Origin: Streptomyces oryzae
Lineage (GTDB): Bacteria > Actinomycetota > Actinomycetes > Streptomycetales > Streptomycetaceae
Assembly (NCBI RefSeq): GCF_017676365.1
Contig: NZ_JADKMA010000007.1
Coordinates: 1 to 64,000, forward strand
Length of the DNA: 64,000 bases
Reading direction: 5' to 3'
This document shows, piece by piece, positions 579 to 14,388 of this stretch. Under the pieces are notes generated by a model. The model made no database searches and had not been told where the DNA came from. It saw only the letters and a program-made list of their open reading frames with translations. Made by a program: the position numbers and the translations under genes. Every line of letters begins with the position of its first letter. The stretch's first letter is position 1.

Positions 579-667
579 GGGGGCTGCGCTTGCCCACCCT
601 GCGCCCCTGGCGCAGACTGCCCAAGCTTCGCGGGTAGCGCATCAGGGGCGCGGGGAACCGCAGGACA
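579..667. repeat. Streptomyces intergenic repeat A, copy 1
   Basis: This copy shares a near-identical core of about 55 bases (579-633) with copies at 7996 and 11499. The core contains the perfect stem CTGCGCC/GGCGCAG and the flanking tract CTTGCCCACC...TGCCCAAGCTT. It is followed by a second shared block containing AGGGGCGCGGGGAAC. It lies 24 bp after the DUF3151 stop codon, as do the other copies relative to their genes, so it may act as a transcript 3' end structure. That role is inferred. Confidence 0.85.
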
Positions 668-7012: not shown

Positions 7013-7987
7013 GTGTCGGCTCCAGATTCCGCGAGGCCCCCCGCGAGCGTGGACCAGGCCGCCGGGGGCACCCCCTGCTCGAAGAGCTCGGGGGAGGTTC
7101 CGCTGCTCGTGGTCGTCGACCCGGTCGCCCGGCTCGCGGACGCCGAGTCCGTACGCATCGCGCGGGACGTGCTGCGCGCCGGGACGCCGGGGCTCAAGCT
7201 GTGTCTCCCCGACGATCCGGCGCAGACGGCGCGGCTGCTGGCCCGGCGCGGCGGCAGGCGCCCCGTCCTGGTCGGCAACGACCGGGCACTGCTGCGCGCC
7301 GTCCAGCATCTGCACGCAGAACGCGCACTGGCGGAGACGGCGCTGTCGGTGGTGCCGGTCGGCAACGGCCCCTCGGTCGCCCTCGCCCGCAGCCTCGGCC
7401 TCCCGCTGGACGCGGTCTCGGCCGCCCGCACGGTGCTGCGCGGCACCCTGCGGGCGCTGGACCTGCTGGTCGACGACGAGGACGGCATCGTGCTGGGCGG
7501 CCTGCGTACGGAGGGGACGCAGGACGCCCCCTCGCCGGCCCCGCAGCACCGGGAGGGCGCCCCCTCGGCTGCGGCTTCGCCGTGGCGCCGGATGTACCAC
7601 GCGCTGGCCCGCACCCTGCTGTCCCGCGCCGACGGCGAACGTGACGAGAGGGCCCCGGCACCGGTGACCCCGGCGCCCCGCACTCCGCAGGTCCGTACCG
7701 TGCAGCGGCTGCGGGTTGAGGCGGACGGGGCGGTCGTCACAGGGCCCGACCGGCCGGTGATGGATGTGACGGTACGCACTAACGGCGCCGAGGGCCTGGC
7801 AGAGCTCTCCGTCCAGCCCCTCGCGGGCCAACCCGTCCGCGTACGCGCCAAGTCCGTGACGGTCTCGGCCCCCGAGGGCTTCCGCTACCGCGCCGACGCG
7901 GACGCGGGCGCCTTCGCCGCCCCCGCGGAATCCCGCACCTGGACGGTCCACCCCCGCGCCTGGCACCTGGTCCTACCTACGGGCTGA
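7013..7987 (+). CDS. Diacylglycerol kinase catalytic-like (DAGKc) protein, degenerate motifs
   Basis: A 324-residue protein resembling the diacylglycerol/sphingosine kinase family: [10 protein letters not shown] near the N-terminus, [13 protein letters not shown] where family members have GGDGT, and [21 protein letters not shown] where they have LPLGTGNDLARSLG. The C-terminal all-beta half ([19 protein letters not shown]...) matches the second domain of the family. The altered GGDGT and GTGNDLAR motifs make ATP-dependent kinase activity doubtful. AGGAAGGA lies five bases before the GTG at 7013. Residues about 18-28 are encoded by an inserted 33-bp repeat (7064-7096). The gene is divergent from purA. 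Confidence 0.72.
7064..7096. repeat. Short repeat B inside a coding region
   Basis: This 33-bp sequence contains GAAGAGCTCGGGGGAG and differs at only two positions from the repeat nested in the intergenic element at 11529-11560 (CACCCCC for TGCCCCC, CTCG for CTTG). It is partly self-complementary, with C-runs facing G-runs around GCTCGAAGAGC. Because it is 11 codons long it adds residues [11 protein letters not shown] in frame near the N-terminus without breaking the protein. Confidence 0.8.
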
Positions 7988-7995
7988 CCCGCAAA

Positions 7996-8140
7996 GGGGG
8001 CTGCGCTTGCCCACCCTGCGCCCCTGGCGCAGACTGCCCAAGCTTCGCGGAGAACAACTCAGGGGCGCGGGGAACTGCGCGACAAGCCACAATGAACCCG
8101 CAGACCGCAAACAACAACGAGGGGCACCCCCTCCCCGGGA
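7996..8140. repeat. Streptomyces intergenic repeat A, copy 2
   Basis: This copy shares its core (7996-8050) exactly with copy 1. The following block (GGGGCGCGGGGAACTGCGCG, then an ACCCGCAG...CCGCAAACAACA...GCACCCCCT tail) matches copy 3. It fills almost the whole gap between the convergent lipid-kinase-like gene (stop 7987) and the GbsR-type regulator (stop 8152). The position supports a role as a shared transcript end; this is inferred. Confidence 0.85.
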
Positions 8141-8151
8141 AGTGAGAGGGC

Positions 8152-8631
8152 TCAACCGCGACGGGACTGCCACCGTTCCAGCAGCTCCTCCAACCCCTGC
8201 CGCATGAATTCAAGAAACTCCGCACTCTCCCGCAACCGCCGCCCCCCGGGCGTCTCCGCACCAATTGCTTCCGCCCCGGCGTTCAGCGTGACCAGCCACC
8301 GGCCCAGGACATGATCGCGACTCAGCAGGGTGCTGTACCAGACGTCCTGGTGCAGTTGGTACCGCTCGCGGCGAGACCCGCGATCACGCTGCCGGGAAAC
8401 CATCCCGACCTGCGACAGATACCGCACGGCACCGGAGATCGCCGCCGGACTGGCATGCAGCCGTTCACTCAGCTCCGCCGAGGTGAGCGCGGCGTCGTCG
8501 GAGGTGAGCAGACAGGCGAAGACGCGGGACGCCATCCGCTGCATGCCCGCCTCGGTGAGATCCGCGGCGAACCGCTCCACGAAGGGGGAGGCCCGCTTCT
8601 CGTAGTCCTCCACGGGGTCCTGATCTGCCAC
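8152..8631 (-). CDS. GbsR/MarR family transcriptional regulator
   Basis: A 159-residue winged helix-turn-helix protein. FVERFAADLTEAGMQRMASRVFACLL is the typical GbsR N-terminal helix, followed by LTSAELSERLHASPAAISGAVRYL (recognition helix) and a basic wing SRQRDRGSRRERYQ. The C-terminal helices (ETPGGRRLRESAEFLEFMRQGLEELLERW) form the dimer region. It is divergent from an ABC exporter operon, with a perfect 16-bp palindrome between them, so it very probably represses that operon and perhaps itself. The ligand is unknown; substrates of the exporter are a reasonable guess. Confidence 0.9.
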   Translation of the reverse strand: MADQDPVEDYEKRASPFVERFAADLTEAGMQRMASRVFACLLTSDDAALTSAELSERLHASPAAISGAVRYLSQVGMVSRQRDRGSRRERYQLHQDVWYSTLLSRDHVLGRWLVTLNAGAEAIGAETPGGRRLRESAEFLEFMRQGLEELLERWQSRRG

Positions 8632-9787: not shown

Positions 9788-11448
9788 GCACCGTCACCGA
9801 GACCGCGCCCCGCACCGGCGCTGTACCCGACCGGAGCGGGACGGCGGGCCACCCGCTCGCCGGCACCGGCGCCCTCTTCCGCTTCGCGCTGCGCCGCGAC
9901 CGGGTACGGCTGCCCGCCTGGGTGCTGGCCACCTTGCTGTTCACACTGGCGAGCGTGAACAAGGCGACGCAGATGGCGCCGGACGACCCGCAGAAGCGCG
10001 CCGACATGGTCAAGACCCTCAGCGGGCCCGCGATGCTGGCGATGACGGGACCCGAGCACTATCTCTCGCAGCTCACCCCGGCCTCCGCACTCAGCCTGAT
10101 GATGCTCGGCTACGGCGCGATCCTCACCGGGCTGATGAGCGTGCTGACCGTCGTGCGGCACACCCGCGCCGACGAGGAGAGCAACATCGCCGAGCTGGTC
10201 CGCTCCGGCGTCGTCGGACGGCACGCCACGCTCACCTCGGCGCTCGCCGTGGCGGCGAGCGCCAATGTGCTGCTGGGGCTGCTGCTGGCCGCCGCGCTGC
10301 CCGGCGCGGGGCTGGAGGGCGCCACCACGGGCGGCGCACTGCTCTACGGCGCCGCGCACACCGTGATCGGCCTCGTCTTCGCGGGCGTCGCGGCCGTGAC
10401 CGTACAGCTGTCCGCACACACCAGGGCCGCCTCCGGGATGGCGCTGGCCGTGCTCGGTGCGTCCTACGGGCTGCGCGCCGCGGGCGACGTCGGCACCGAG
10501 GCGGTCTCCTGGGTCTCACCGATCGGCTGGATCCAGCGCAGCTACCCCTTCGTCGACGACCGCTGGTGGCCGCTGCTGCCCGCGCTCGCGCTGGCCCTCG
10601 TCGCGGCCGCCGCCGGATACGCGCTCAGCACCCGGCGCGATGTGGGCGCCGGCATCCTGCCGCCCCGGCTGGGCAGGCCGAGCGCGACGGAGGCGCTCAC
10701 CAACCCGGTCGGCTTCGCCGTCCGGCTGCACCGCGGGCTGTTCCTCGGCTTCTGCGCCGGGCTGCTGCTGCTCGGCGCGATGTACGGGTCGATCCTCGGC
10801 GACGTGGACGACATGCTCAAGGACCTGGACGACGTACGCGAAGCCCTCGCCAAGGCGGGCGGCACGCTGGTCGAGTCGTTCGCCTCGACGGTGATGCTCG
10901 TCGTCGCCGTCGTCGCTGCGCTGTTCGTGGTGATGGCCGCGCTGCGGCCCCGCTCCGAGGAGACCGCGGGGCGTGTCGAACCCCTGCTGGCCACCGGTCT
11001 GTCCCGGTCCCGCTGGCTCGGCTCGCACCTGGTCGCCGCACTGGGCGGCGGCACCCTCGTCCTGGCGCTGGGCGCGCTCGCCCTCGGCCTGACGGGAGCC
11101 GCCTCGGCGGGCGACGGCGGCCTGGTGGCCGAGCTGCTGGGCGCGGGGCTCGCCTACGCGCCCGCGCTGTGGGTGACCGGCGGTTTCGCCGTCCTGCTGT
11201 TCGGCTGGGCACCGCGGGCGACCGCGCTGGCCTGGGCCGTTCCCGCCTACGGCTTCGTCGTCGGCTACCTCGGCAAGCTCCTCGACCTGCCCGGCTGGCT
11301 GAACGACCTCTCCCCCTTCGGCCACGTCCCCCAACTCCCCGCCTCCGACATGCGCTGGACGCCGATGGTCCTGCTGACGCTGGTGGCCGCTGCCCTGATC
11401 GCCTGCGGCGTTGCCGGCTTCCGCCGCCGGGACCTCGACGCGAAGTGA
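9784..11448 (+). CDS. ABC transporter permease, polyketide-antibiotic exporter type
   Basis: A 554-residue membrane protein with about twelve hydrophobic segments arranged as two similar halves. The order ([17 protein letters not shown] start, [16 protein letters not shown] cytoplasmic loop, [25 protein letters not shown] second copy of the loop) is that of the exporter permeases associated with tetronasin-type resistance. The duplicated AELVRSG / VEPLLATG loops show internal duplication. It is translationally coupled with the ATPase. The likely role is efflux of a hydrophobic compound, controlled by the divergent GbsR-type regulator; substrate unknown. Confidence 0.9.
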
Positions 11449-11498
11449 GGGCGCCGCGTACTGAAGGGGTGCGGGTCATGCTTGTCGGTGCCCGGCAT

Positions 11499-11661
11499 GG
11501 GGGCTGCGCTTGCCCACCCTGCGCCCTGGGGGTGCCCCCTGCTCGAAGAGCTTGGGGGAGCAGACTGCCCAAGCTTGCGGGGAAACAAATAAGGGGCGCG
11601 GGGAACTGCGCGCGCAACCAAAACTCACCCGCAGTCCGCGAACAACAGTCAGGCGCACCCC
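11499..11661. repeat. Streptomyces intergenic repeat A, copy 3, with nested repeat B
   Basis: This copy matches copies 1 and 2 but carries an additional segment of about 32 bp (11529-11560, containing GCTCGAAGAGCTTGGGGGAG) at the tip of the core stem. That segment is repeat B, also present in the coding region at 7064-7096. The tail (GGGGCGCGGGGAACTGCGCG and an ACCCGCAG...CCGCGAACAACA...GCACCCCCT block) runs to within two bases of the kinase stop codon. It fills the gap between the convergent permease and kinase genes. Confidence 0.85.
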
Positions 11662-11662
11662 C

Positions 11663-13687
11663 TCAGTCGGCAGCCTGGTACCGCAGCACCCGCCCGTCAG
11701 GGAACTCGCGGAGCAGCACACCATCCCCGTCCACCCGCAACGTGGAGGTGTCCCCCGCCGCACAGGTGCCCCGCGACGCGGACCGGTCCACGTCGGGCGG
11801 CGCCAGCCGCGCCGGCTCCGTGCCGGTGCCGGGGGAGAAGACATCGACCCGCGCCTCACAGTGCTCAGCGCCGTCCGACACCATCGTCAGCCCCTGATCG
11901 GCGGAGCCGTCACCGCGCACGGTCAACGTCTGGTGGCCGCCGCCCGAGAGCGGGCGGCGCCACTCGCCGACCAGCCCGTCCGGCATCCGCCGCGGGTCGG
12001 CAACCTTGCGCAGCGTCGCCGTACGCCCCGCGGCCCGCCATTCGAGGACGTCGCCCGGCTTGGCCGTCAGCGTATGGACGCCGATCGCCGCGCACCTGCC
12101 GGCCGGCGTGCTCTTGACGACCTTGGTGTCCAGCCGCATGCCCTCGCCGTCGCCCCCGGCTCCGGGGGCCGAGGCCAGCTTGCCGTCGCTCTTGCACTCG
12201 TAGTCGGTGCCCAGGCTGATGCTGGTGGCGACGATCTCGCCCTCCTTGCCCTTGGTGACGTCGAAGCGGCGGTACTGGCCGGTGGGCCTGCCGTCCCGCT
12301 CGACGGCACCCACCCAGGTGCCGAGATACGGTGCGGGCACGTCGGAGGACGCCTTGTCCCCGTCCTTGCCTCCGCCGCCCCCGCCGTTGCCGCCGAGCGG
12401 CCCGATACCGGTGCCGGCTGCGGCGACCCCGACGCCCACCAGGACCACGGCCGCCGCGGCGGCGAGCAGCGCACGGCGGCTGCGCCGAACACGGCGCCGC
12501 GGTGCGTGCTGGCCCCCGCCGGACGCCGGAAGCGCCGAGGTGGGCGCCTCGGGCCCGCCCCCGGACCCGGACTCCGACCCCGCCCCGAACGCCGAACCGG
12601 AGCCGGGGCCGTGGCCAAGGCCAGAAGTGGAACCGGAACCGGAAACGGAAGCCCTGACAGCGGTCGGATCCTCCCCCGGGCCGGACCCCTCGGGCTTCCC
12701 CGACCCCCGCGGCGGCGTGTCCGTGTCCAGCAACCGCACCGCCTCGCGGCCCAGTTCGGCCAAGAGCCCCGCGGGCAGCCACGGCGGGGCCGAGGCGCCG
12801 ACGGACACCGGCTGCACCCGCGCGACGACCTCCTCAGGCGCGGGCCGCGCCGCGGGGTCCTTGGCGAGACAGTCGCCGATCAACTCCCGCAGCCGTACGG
12901 CCTCTTCGTCGGCCGGGTCGGCGCCGAGGGCGCCCAGGTCCGGCTCCTCGGAGGCAATCTTGTACATCAGCGCGTGCACCCCGCCGCCGCCACCGGTCAG
13001 GCCGAAGGGCGGCTGTCCGGTCGCGGCGTAGCCGAGCACGGCGCCGAGGGAGAACACATCGCTCGCCGGGGAGAGCCTGCCGCCGGTGATCTGCTCGGGC
13101 GACATGTAGCCGGGCGAACCGACGACCATGCCGGTGCTGGTCAGCGTGGAGGCGGGCACCTCGTCCAGCGCGCGGGCGATACCGAAGTCGATGACGCGCG
13201 GCCCGTCGATGGTCAGCAGCACATTGGACGGCTTCAGGTCCCGGTGGACGAGCCCGGCGCCGTGGATGTCGAGCAGCGCGGAGGCGAGTCCGTACGCCAG
13301 AACGCGGACCGAGCCGGGCGGCAGCGGCCCGTGCCCCTGCCGCGCCGAGGGCGCACCGCTGCCCGCCCGCCCGGCGGAGATCACCTGTTCCAGCGAGGGC
13401 CCGGCGACGTATCCGGTGGCCACCCATGGGGTGTCGGCCTCGGTGTCGGCGTCCAGCACCGGTGCCGTCCACCTCTCGCCGACCCGCCGCGCGGCCTCCA
13501 CCTCCATCCGGAACCGTGTCCGGAACGAGGGGTCGGCCGCCAGCTCTTCCTTCACCAGCTTGACGGCCACCGTCCTGCCGCCCGAGGAGCGCCCCAGGTA
13601 CACCCGTCCCATGCCGCCCGCGCCCAGTCTCCTCAGCAGCCGATAGCCGCCGATTCCGACCGGGTCCTGTGGCGTCAGGTCCGTCAT
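11663..13687 (-). CDS. Membrane serine/threonine protein kinase with extracytoplasmic sensor region
   Basis: A 674-residue PknB-type kinase. The catalytic domain holds the Gly loop LGAGGMGRVYLG (21-32), Lys43 (AVK), HRDLKPSN (148-155), DFG (167-169) and SPGYMSPEQ. A Pro/Ser/Gly-rich linker (about 300-400), a basic stretch and one transmembrane helix (about 406-427) lead to an outer region of about 240 residues. That region contains two similar segments starting GTWVGAVERDG (456) and GEWRRPLSGGG (574), and four cysteines (498, 532, 610, 642) that could form two disulfides. A lipocalin-like sensor fold is inferred. The ATG at 13687 begins the kinase domain directly. No operon partner is evident. 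Confidence 0.93.
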   Translation of the reverse strand: MTDLTPQDPVGIGGYRLLRRLGAGGMGRVYLGRSSGGRTVAVKLVKEELAADPSFRTRFRMEVEAARRVGERWTAPVLDADTEADTPWVATGYVAGPSLEQVISAGRAGSGAPSARQGHGPLPPGSVRVLAYGLASALLDIHGAGLVHRDLKPSNVLLTIDGPRVIDFGIARALDEVPASTLTSTGMVVGSPGYMSPEQITGGRLSPASDVFSLGAVLGYAATGQPPFGLTGGGGGVHALMYKIASEEPDLGALGADPADEEAVRLRELIGDCLAKDPAARPAPEEVVARVQPVSVGASAPPWLPAGLLAELGREAVRLLDTDTPPRGSGKPEGSGPGEDPTAVRASVSGSGSTSGLGHGPGSGSAFGAGSESGSGGGPEAPTSALPASGGGQHAPRRRVRRSRRALLAAAAAVVLVGVGVAAAGTGIGPLGGNGGGGGGKDGDKASSDVPAPYLGTWVGAVERDGRPTGQYRRFDVTKGKEGEIVATSISLGTDYECKSDGKLASAPGAGGDGEGMRLDTKVVKSTPAGRCAAIGVHTLTAKPGDVLEWRAAGRTATLRKVADPRRMPDGLVGEWRRPLSGGGHQTLTVRGDGSADQGLTMVSDGAEHCEARVDVFSPGTGTEPARLAPPDVDRSASRGTCAAGDTSTLRVDGDGVLLREFPDGRVLRYQAAD

Positions 13688-13857: not shown

Positions 13858-14388
13858 TCATTTCTCCGGGTACAGGGCCTCCATCGCCTCCGAGAGCCGC
13901 CGCAGGGCCGCCGCCACCCGGGCGAACTCCCGCTCACCGCCCAGCTCTTGGCACAGCCTCCGGGCCAGCTCGGCATGGCCGGGGACGATACGTTCGATGG
14001 CGGCGCGGCCCTCGGGGGTGGGGGTGAGGAGCTTGGCGCGGCGGTGCGCCGGGTTGGGTTCGTAGGCGGCGAGGCCCCGTTCGACCAGCAGGTCGGCGAT
14101 GCGCTGCACGCTCTGCCGGGTGATGCCCATGGCCCGGGCTATCCCGGCGACGGGCAGCGGTTCGCGGAGTACGGCTCCGAGGACCTGCCACCAGGCGGCG
14201 GTCAGCCCGGCCGGGCGGGCGATCAGTTCGGCGGCGCCGAGGAACTGGCCGTTGAGCCGGAAGACGGCGAGCGCGGTCTCGCTCACCAACTCCCGTTCAT
14301 CGGGAAGCCCGCGGTCACCGGGAAGCTCCCGTTCACCGGGAAGCTCCCGTTCACCGGGAAGCTCCCGTTCGCCAGGATGCTCGCTCAT
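13858..14388 (-). CDS. MarR family transcriptional regulator
   Basis: A 176-residue MarR protein: LTAAWWQVLGAVLREPLPVAGIARAMGITRQSVQRIADLLVERGLAAYEPNP is the winged helix-turn-helix, followed by HRRAKLLTPTPEGRAAIERI and a C-terminal dimerisation helix. The N-terminal 35 residues are an unusual run of GERELP-type hexapeptides that is absent from typical family members and encoded by an 18-bp tandem repeat. Its ATG overlaps the stop of the DJ-1 gene (ATGA), so the two are co-transcribed. Two CTGTCA-type dyads upstream of the operon are its likely autoregulatory operators. Confidence 0.9.
   Translation of the reverse strand: MSEHPGERELPGERELPGERELPGDRGLPDERELVSETALAVFRLNGQFLGAAELIARPAGLTAAWWQVLGAVLREPLPVAGIARAMGITRQSVQRIADLLVERGLAAYEPNPAHRRAKLLTPTPEGRAAIERIVPGHAELARRLCQELGGEREFARVAAALRRLSEAMEALYPEK
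14287..14373. repeat. 18-bp coding tandem repeat (GERELP)n
   Basis: About five units of an 18-bp repeat (coding strand GGTGAACGGGAGCTTCCC) encode GERELP, GERELP, GERELP, GDRGLP and DEREL at residues 6-34 of the MarR regulator. Three units are nearly identical at the DNA level, pointing to recent slippage expansion. Confidence 0.85.

Follow-up and report, generated by a model that had tools for sequence, protein, structure and literature searches.

Has one very short repeat entered another, and if so, did it happen once or many times? The question is raised by an intergenic locus at position 11499 of the stretch of Streptomyces oryzae DNA analyzed here (64,000 nucleotides of contig NZ_JADKMA010000007.1; hereafter, the window), where a palindromic repeat, A, carries a second repeat, B, in its hairpin. 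Comparing copies of both repeats across genomes, we conclude, with a probability of roughly 0.7, that B is a non-autonomous mobile element, palindromic and very small, for which the older hairpin A is a hot spot.

Repeat B lies within one arm of repeat A

The copies of A, B, and a third repeat, T, that the window holds at and around this locus are as follows.

11501..11581, plus strand: repeat A, occupied by B in its right arm; intact left arm CTGCGCC at 11519-11525, right-arm remnant CAG at 11561-11563
11527..11560, minus strand: repeat B inside A, AGCTC type, 34 nt, reading CTCCCCCAAGCTCTTCGAGCAGGGGGCACCCCCA on the minus strand
11593..11619, plus strand: core of repeat T without B, GGGGCGCGGGGAACTGCGCG..., read from the sequence
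581..628, plus strand: repeat A, empty, found by pattern match
7998..8045, plus strand: repeat A, empty, between convergent genes, one DAGK_cat-like (ends at 7987) and one MarR-like (ends at 8152)
7064..7096, minus strand: repeat B alone, in frame near the start of reading frame 7013-7987

The product of reading frame 7013-7987 weakly matches DAGK_cat. Besides 11593-11619, repeat T is seen in the window at 8062-8090 and 645-670, and on many other contigs.

The original prediction, made from the letters of the window, described copies of A at 579 and 7996 with the stem CTGCGCC/GGCGCAG, which is what we find, and matched the extra bases of the copy at 11499 to the separate repeat at 7064-7096; both are indeed members of the B family. 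It put the extra bases at about 32 and placed them exactly at the stem tip. B is present and does occupy the loop, but it also takes the place of the half of the right arm next to the loop. Of that arm, GGCGCAG, CAG is left; the left arm, CTGCGCC, is complete. Since B replaces some hairpin bases, A is lengthened by a net 28 bases rather than 32, as measured by the spacing of its halves (60 versus 32).

Both repeats are abundant in S. oryzae and many copies of A carry B

Repeat A is a 48-base imperfect palindrome with 74 core matches in the S. oryzae genome (pattern of 23 bases, at most 3 mismatches), while a B pattern of 19 bases with at most 1 mismatch finds 80; the reversed-pattern controls gave 0 matches in both cases, which excludes chance for A and for B. 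A broader exact B pattern matches 84 times. B itself is a palindromic element of 31-35 bases. Its ends, CTCCCCC...CCCCCA, are fixed, whereas its inner stem varies, also between species, yet remains self-complementary. Of 13 genomes of the genus, 12 contain an exact B pattern, in 1-110 copies, and the remaining one (G005) has none; the reversed-pattern control gave one match in one genome. The 110 exact copies of genome G101 have different inner stems and lie in a genome of 5.7 Mb. Viral contigs held no exact A or B pattern, and phage records gave no match.

In S. oryzae, 29 of 66 readable copies of A are empty and 37 contain B, which sits in the right arm in 34 of them and in the left in 3; the other 8 of the 74 copies, some of them truncated, could not be read by the script and are left out of these counts. 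The nested copy had been called a clean case of one element inserted in another: the insertion of B into A stands, whereas its uniqueness does not, with 37 of 66 copies occupied. These counts also bear on the idea that A and B spread together as a composite unit after one insertion. The 34 of 37 occupied copies that share an arm, mostly with the same type of B, fit such a history, but occupied and empty copies are both present on every common A background and, as described below, most orthologous loci are discordant. We consider spread as a composite very improbable.

Empty copies of A represent the ancestral state

It had been foreseen that most copies of A might prove to be long, making the short form a deletion product. 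A narrow majority of the S. oryzae copies is indeed long, and this is what favors deletion; elsewhere, however, the short form prevails. Pattern-matched copies of A are all empty in Streptomyces sp. HNM0574 (42 copies), Streptomyces sp. JJ38 (8), S. cacaoi (1), Nocardia otitidiscaviarum (5), and Nocardia sp. CC227C (3), that is, in 59 of 59 cases in five genomes (p=6e-15 for the contrast between this group and the genomes with occupied A). The counts for genomes other than S. oryzae come from one exact pattern that misses variants with different flanks; with it, S. smyrnaeus has 11 copies (7 empty, 3 with B in the right arm, 1 in the left), S. spirodelae 17 (7 empty, 6 right, 4 left), and S. 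boncukensis 3 (1 empty, 0 right, 2 left). Moreover, occupied copies lack the right-arm GGCG that empty copies have, so a simple deletion cannot rebuild the perfect stem. Because 59 of 59 copies are empty in the five genomes and the occupied form is without these arm bases, sequence comparison indicates that empty A is the ancestral state, and the derivation of short A by deletion is barely credible.

The distribution of A was also surveyed in 150 genomes of the genus, including S. oryzae. The exact occupied-A pattern was found in S. oryzae only (29 matches), and the exact empty-A pattern 25 times in S. oryzae and once in one other genome. Among the matches listed, the named genomes that bear A are several Streptomyces and two Nocardia. 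The Nocardia loci (L261, L266, L282, and L287 in N. otitidiscaviarum; L276, L312, L313, and L326 in Nocardia sp. CC227C) show the inner helix CA/TG as well, and the flanks of some copies resemble each other between these two genomes.

Orthologous loci point to recurrent entry of B

Comparison of flanks yielded 14 A loci common to at least two of S. oryzae, S. smyrnaeus, and S. spirodelae. Two states were read separately, that of S. oryzae at C353, where the script pattern missed the copy, and that of S. spirodelae at C196, which was taken from the alignment; four loci without A in S. oryzae (C68:6525, C396:5205, C127:7530, and C401:15055) and chance matches marked '?' were excluded. At 11 of the 14 loci the species differ in occupancy, in the type of B, or in the invaded arm, and at the remaining 3 neither of the species compared carries B in A. 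An occupied copy in one species faces an empty one in another at 8 loci, and at 5 loci two species are occupied with different B types or arms, 2 loci belonging to both groups. The invaded arm differs between species at C348:34310 and C68:14332, and at one orthologous locus A itself is inverted.

Since 11 of 14 loci are discordant, B appears to have entered the same hairpins repeatedly. Comparison between species, rather than observed events, thus indicates that A is a recurrent hot spot of B, with independent entries in related species. The proposal that B can move or be copied is supported, by the many entries into A and by orthologous sites found both empty and occupied. The survey of A and B across the genome and its relatives revealed such pairs of sites and no target duplication visible by eye, in the orthologous A alignments as in those of coding loci described below.

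Repeat B also occupies repeat T, protein-coding genes, and a plasmid element

Repeat T (GGGGCGCGGGGAACTGCGCGA...) is far commoner than A, with 323 first-look candidates, and is the second frequent home of B. In S. oryzae, CTG stands directly before B in 64 of 80 copies, mainly at A (CTG|CGCC) and at T (GGGGAACTG|CGCGA), and is largely supplied by these targets themselves. Within a DNA sample biased toward B, S. oryzae has 89 empty and 47 occupied copies of T; the HNM0574 DNA examined has 148 empty copies and 0 occupied, and B is nearly absent from it (3 doubtful matches). At the C196 locus, the tail of T contains a GCC-type B in S. spirodelae and, at the same place, four different bases in both S. 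oryzae and S. smyrnaeus.

B is also found in frame in four S. oryzae genes, on contigs C352, C34, C360, and C398, which encode NuoG-like, luciferase-like (a luciferase-like monooxygenase), thiolase, and metallo-beta-lactamase-fold proteins. Eight loci with B at a unique site were queried by their flanks and these four aligned, the weaker matches of C169 being left out of the alignment. All 18 of 18 aligned relatives, at about 78-85% identity, are without B. The net gains are 24, 27, 27, and 42 bases, all multiples of three, and B adds an in-frame peptide to each protein. Across insertions the net gain is mostly 24-30 bases and few target bases are replaced, their number depending on the alignment. 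Among the matches listed there were no relatives for the flanks of C143, C377, C35, or the window's 7064-7096, and thus no empty ortholog of the B copy at 7064-7096.

Six plasmid records of Streptomyces, including four from S. zaomyceticus, show similarity to the window's nested repeat in its B part and not in its A part. On plasmids, B lies in a MITE-like element, about 185 bases long and with TA at each end, that has TAGGGCCTGTCGTCAAATTCCCG and its reverse complement as termini. The element holds two copies of B in L399, one in L402, and none in L404 and L406; L405 has a different hairpin at one position, and L403 is degenerate. Four further sequences of the ten-row plasmid alignment represent a related second element.

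Insertion and gene conversion as possible routes of spread

Typing by script of 111 B-like elements in 1.58 million fetched bases, a sample biased by its choice around A and B, placed the AGCTC type mostly in A and T and the GCC type mostly elsewhere (p=1e-10), a few of the sites called 'other' being copies of A or T that escaped the pattern. Of the GCC-type copies, several are inside reading frames. In AGCTC-type B, the inner dinucleotide is TA where it occupies A and TG where it occupies T (p=1e-4). We also considered a rule that GCC-type B comes after C, which was unconvincing by eye.

Both the concentration of AGCTC-type B in A and T and the inner dinucleotides speak for a different history, in which B arrived in A and T on one or a few occasions and then spread by short-tract gene conversion or replication template switching, with no need of a transposase. 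So does the frequency of A copies with unmatched halves (AG with TG, CA with CT), 6 of 36 among occupied versus 1 of 109 among empty copies of all species (p=0.001), although against the 29 empty copies of S. oryzae itself p=0.12. Conversion does not readily account, however, for B at unique coding sites that have neither A nor T nearby, for B in an unrelated plasmid element, or for the invasion of both arms of A. As the sole route of spread it is a serious possibility that we hold to be somewhat doubtful. At the coding and plasmid sites, entry without flanking homology is needed. Short-tract conversion may nonetheless help to spread B, and part of the occupancy of A may reflect conversion rather than new insertion.

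If B is a mobile palindrome with A as its hot spot, it would enter A right behind CTG (CTG|CGCC), in one arm or, by symmetry, the other, and replace some bases of arm and loop without a visible target duplication. The folded target, single-stranded or extruded, would be what is recognized, by a trans-acting enzyme that is probably not a Y1 transposase, and short-tract conversion between copies of A or of T would add to the spread. A more specific version, to which we give rather little weight, is a hairpin-into-hairpin system in which an undescribed, non-Y1 enzyme places B in the arms of extruded palindromes and exchanges a few bases rather than making a target duplication, a putative pairing between CTG and the inner CAG of AGCTC-type B aiding the choice of site.

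Distribution of Y1 transposases and relation to known repeats

Its small size, hairpin form, and missing target duplication liken B to REPs, as the available text of PMC3116915 portrays them, and would fit movement of B or A in trans by a Y1 transposase (RAYT/IS200-IS605). We searched 19 genomes with Y1_Tnp (PF01797) alone. Full-length domains are present in two genomes, G140 with 24 strict B copies and G085 with 5; by its identical contig numbers and positions, G085 is probably the S. boncukensis genome (G167). S. oryzae, however, yielded fragments and no intact Y1, and the same search found none in S. smyrnaeus or in the B-rich genomes G101 (110 strict B copies), G018 (22), and G002 (20). 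Fragments were seen in S. spirodelae and HNM0574, and one Y1 with a stop in JJ38. Given this patchy distribution, REP/RAYT-type movement is unsupported as a general cause, and we regard it as quite unlikely. It is possible that the enzyme was lost after B had spread.

Several families of short repeats invite comparison. Cyanobacterial SDRs (small dispersed repeats) are mobile hairpins of 20-odd bases located within other repeats; they belong to a different phylum, have a different sequence, and are likened to B by description only. REPs are described in the accessible part of PMC3116915 as very small non-autonomous palindromes, present in hundreds of copies and inserted in or beside one another. 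Like REPs and REPINs, B is short, palindromic, and dispersed; in contrast to the REP/REPIN-RAYT systems, however, it has no intact Y1 in S. oryzae, replaces target bases, occupies the arms of unrelated hairpin repeats, and lies within coding sequence as well, so that it is not purely extragenic. RPEs (Rickettsia palindromic elements), according to the sections available of PMC2229807 and PMC10969869, are palindromic repeats that are fused in frame in conserved protein genes and are also intergenic. By this description B resembles them in its four in-frame protein genes, but RPEs measure about 100-150 bases and B 31-35, and B is concentrated in other repeats. B also targets dyad-symmetric repeats, as do YPAL/RU-2 of Yersinia, whose targets adjoin or span dyad symmetry (in the portion of PMC2229807 that deals with them), and the insertion sequences that use REPs as targets (PMC1525189); YPAL, however, is about 168 bases long and makes target duplications, and insertion sequences encode their own transposase. 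From MITEs, B differs in showing no target-site duplication by eye in the orthologous comparisons. Among the matches listed, we found no literature on these A, B, and T repeats in Streptomyces, in a search whose coverage mostly excludes subscription papers.

The loci described here document naturally occurring entries, repeated and independent, of one of the smallest mobile DNAs into the same hairpins. At orthologous loci of S. smyrnaeus and S. spirodelae, A is empty or has B in its left or its right arm, which makes movement of an element of REP size in the absence of a resident RAYT directly testable. Annotation is affected as well, with in-frame changes to proteins and cluttered intergenic regions in Streptomyces as consequences of B.

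Folding of repeat A and its possible role at transcript ends

An alternative view of both repeats is that they are chiefly RNA hairpins, acting as 3' end or terminator elements whose form is kept by selection on transcripts. Empty A is far more stable than its shuffles: a typed 49-base copy with a full outer stem reaches -32.7 kcal/mol as RNA (z -6.2), and the copy at 7999-8050 has a z of -2.0. In 109 empty copies from nine genomes, 99.5% of the cells of the inner two-pair helix are paired, versus 66% (maximum 76%) in 2000 shuffles; this helix has two main states, CA/TG and AG/CT, and few independent changes therefore lie behind its pairing. A is also over-represented between convergent genes, with 26 of 59 classified copies versus 122 of 551 background gaps as delimited by a rough gene caller (p=6e-4). 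However, the window's occupied A is no more stable than shuffled sequences (z 0.39), a terminator scan gave nothing on A itself, and B stands in frame in genes. That A and B are chiefly RNA elements appears unlikely. An Rfam scan of positions 11400-11700 of the window gave no match up to E=1. The hairpin of B showed no clear gain in stability over shuffles (z -1.25, -0.04, and -2.19), which counts against the reading of B as a mobile palindrome. An RNA role is compatible with mobility, as a mobile element may be tolerated where it ends transcripts, and the enrichment of A between convergent genes makes a role at transcript ends possible alongside the movement of B. Elsewhere in the window, positions 14290-14379 hold an 18-base tandem repeat, seen as four overlapping 36-base copies.
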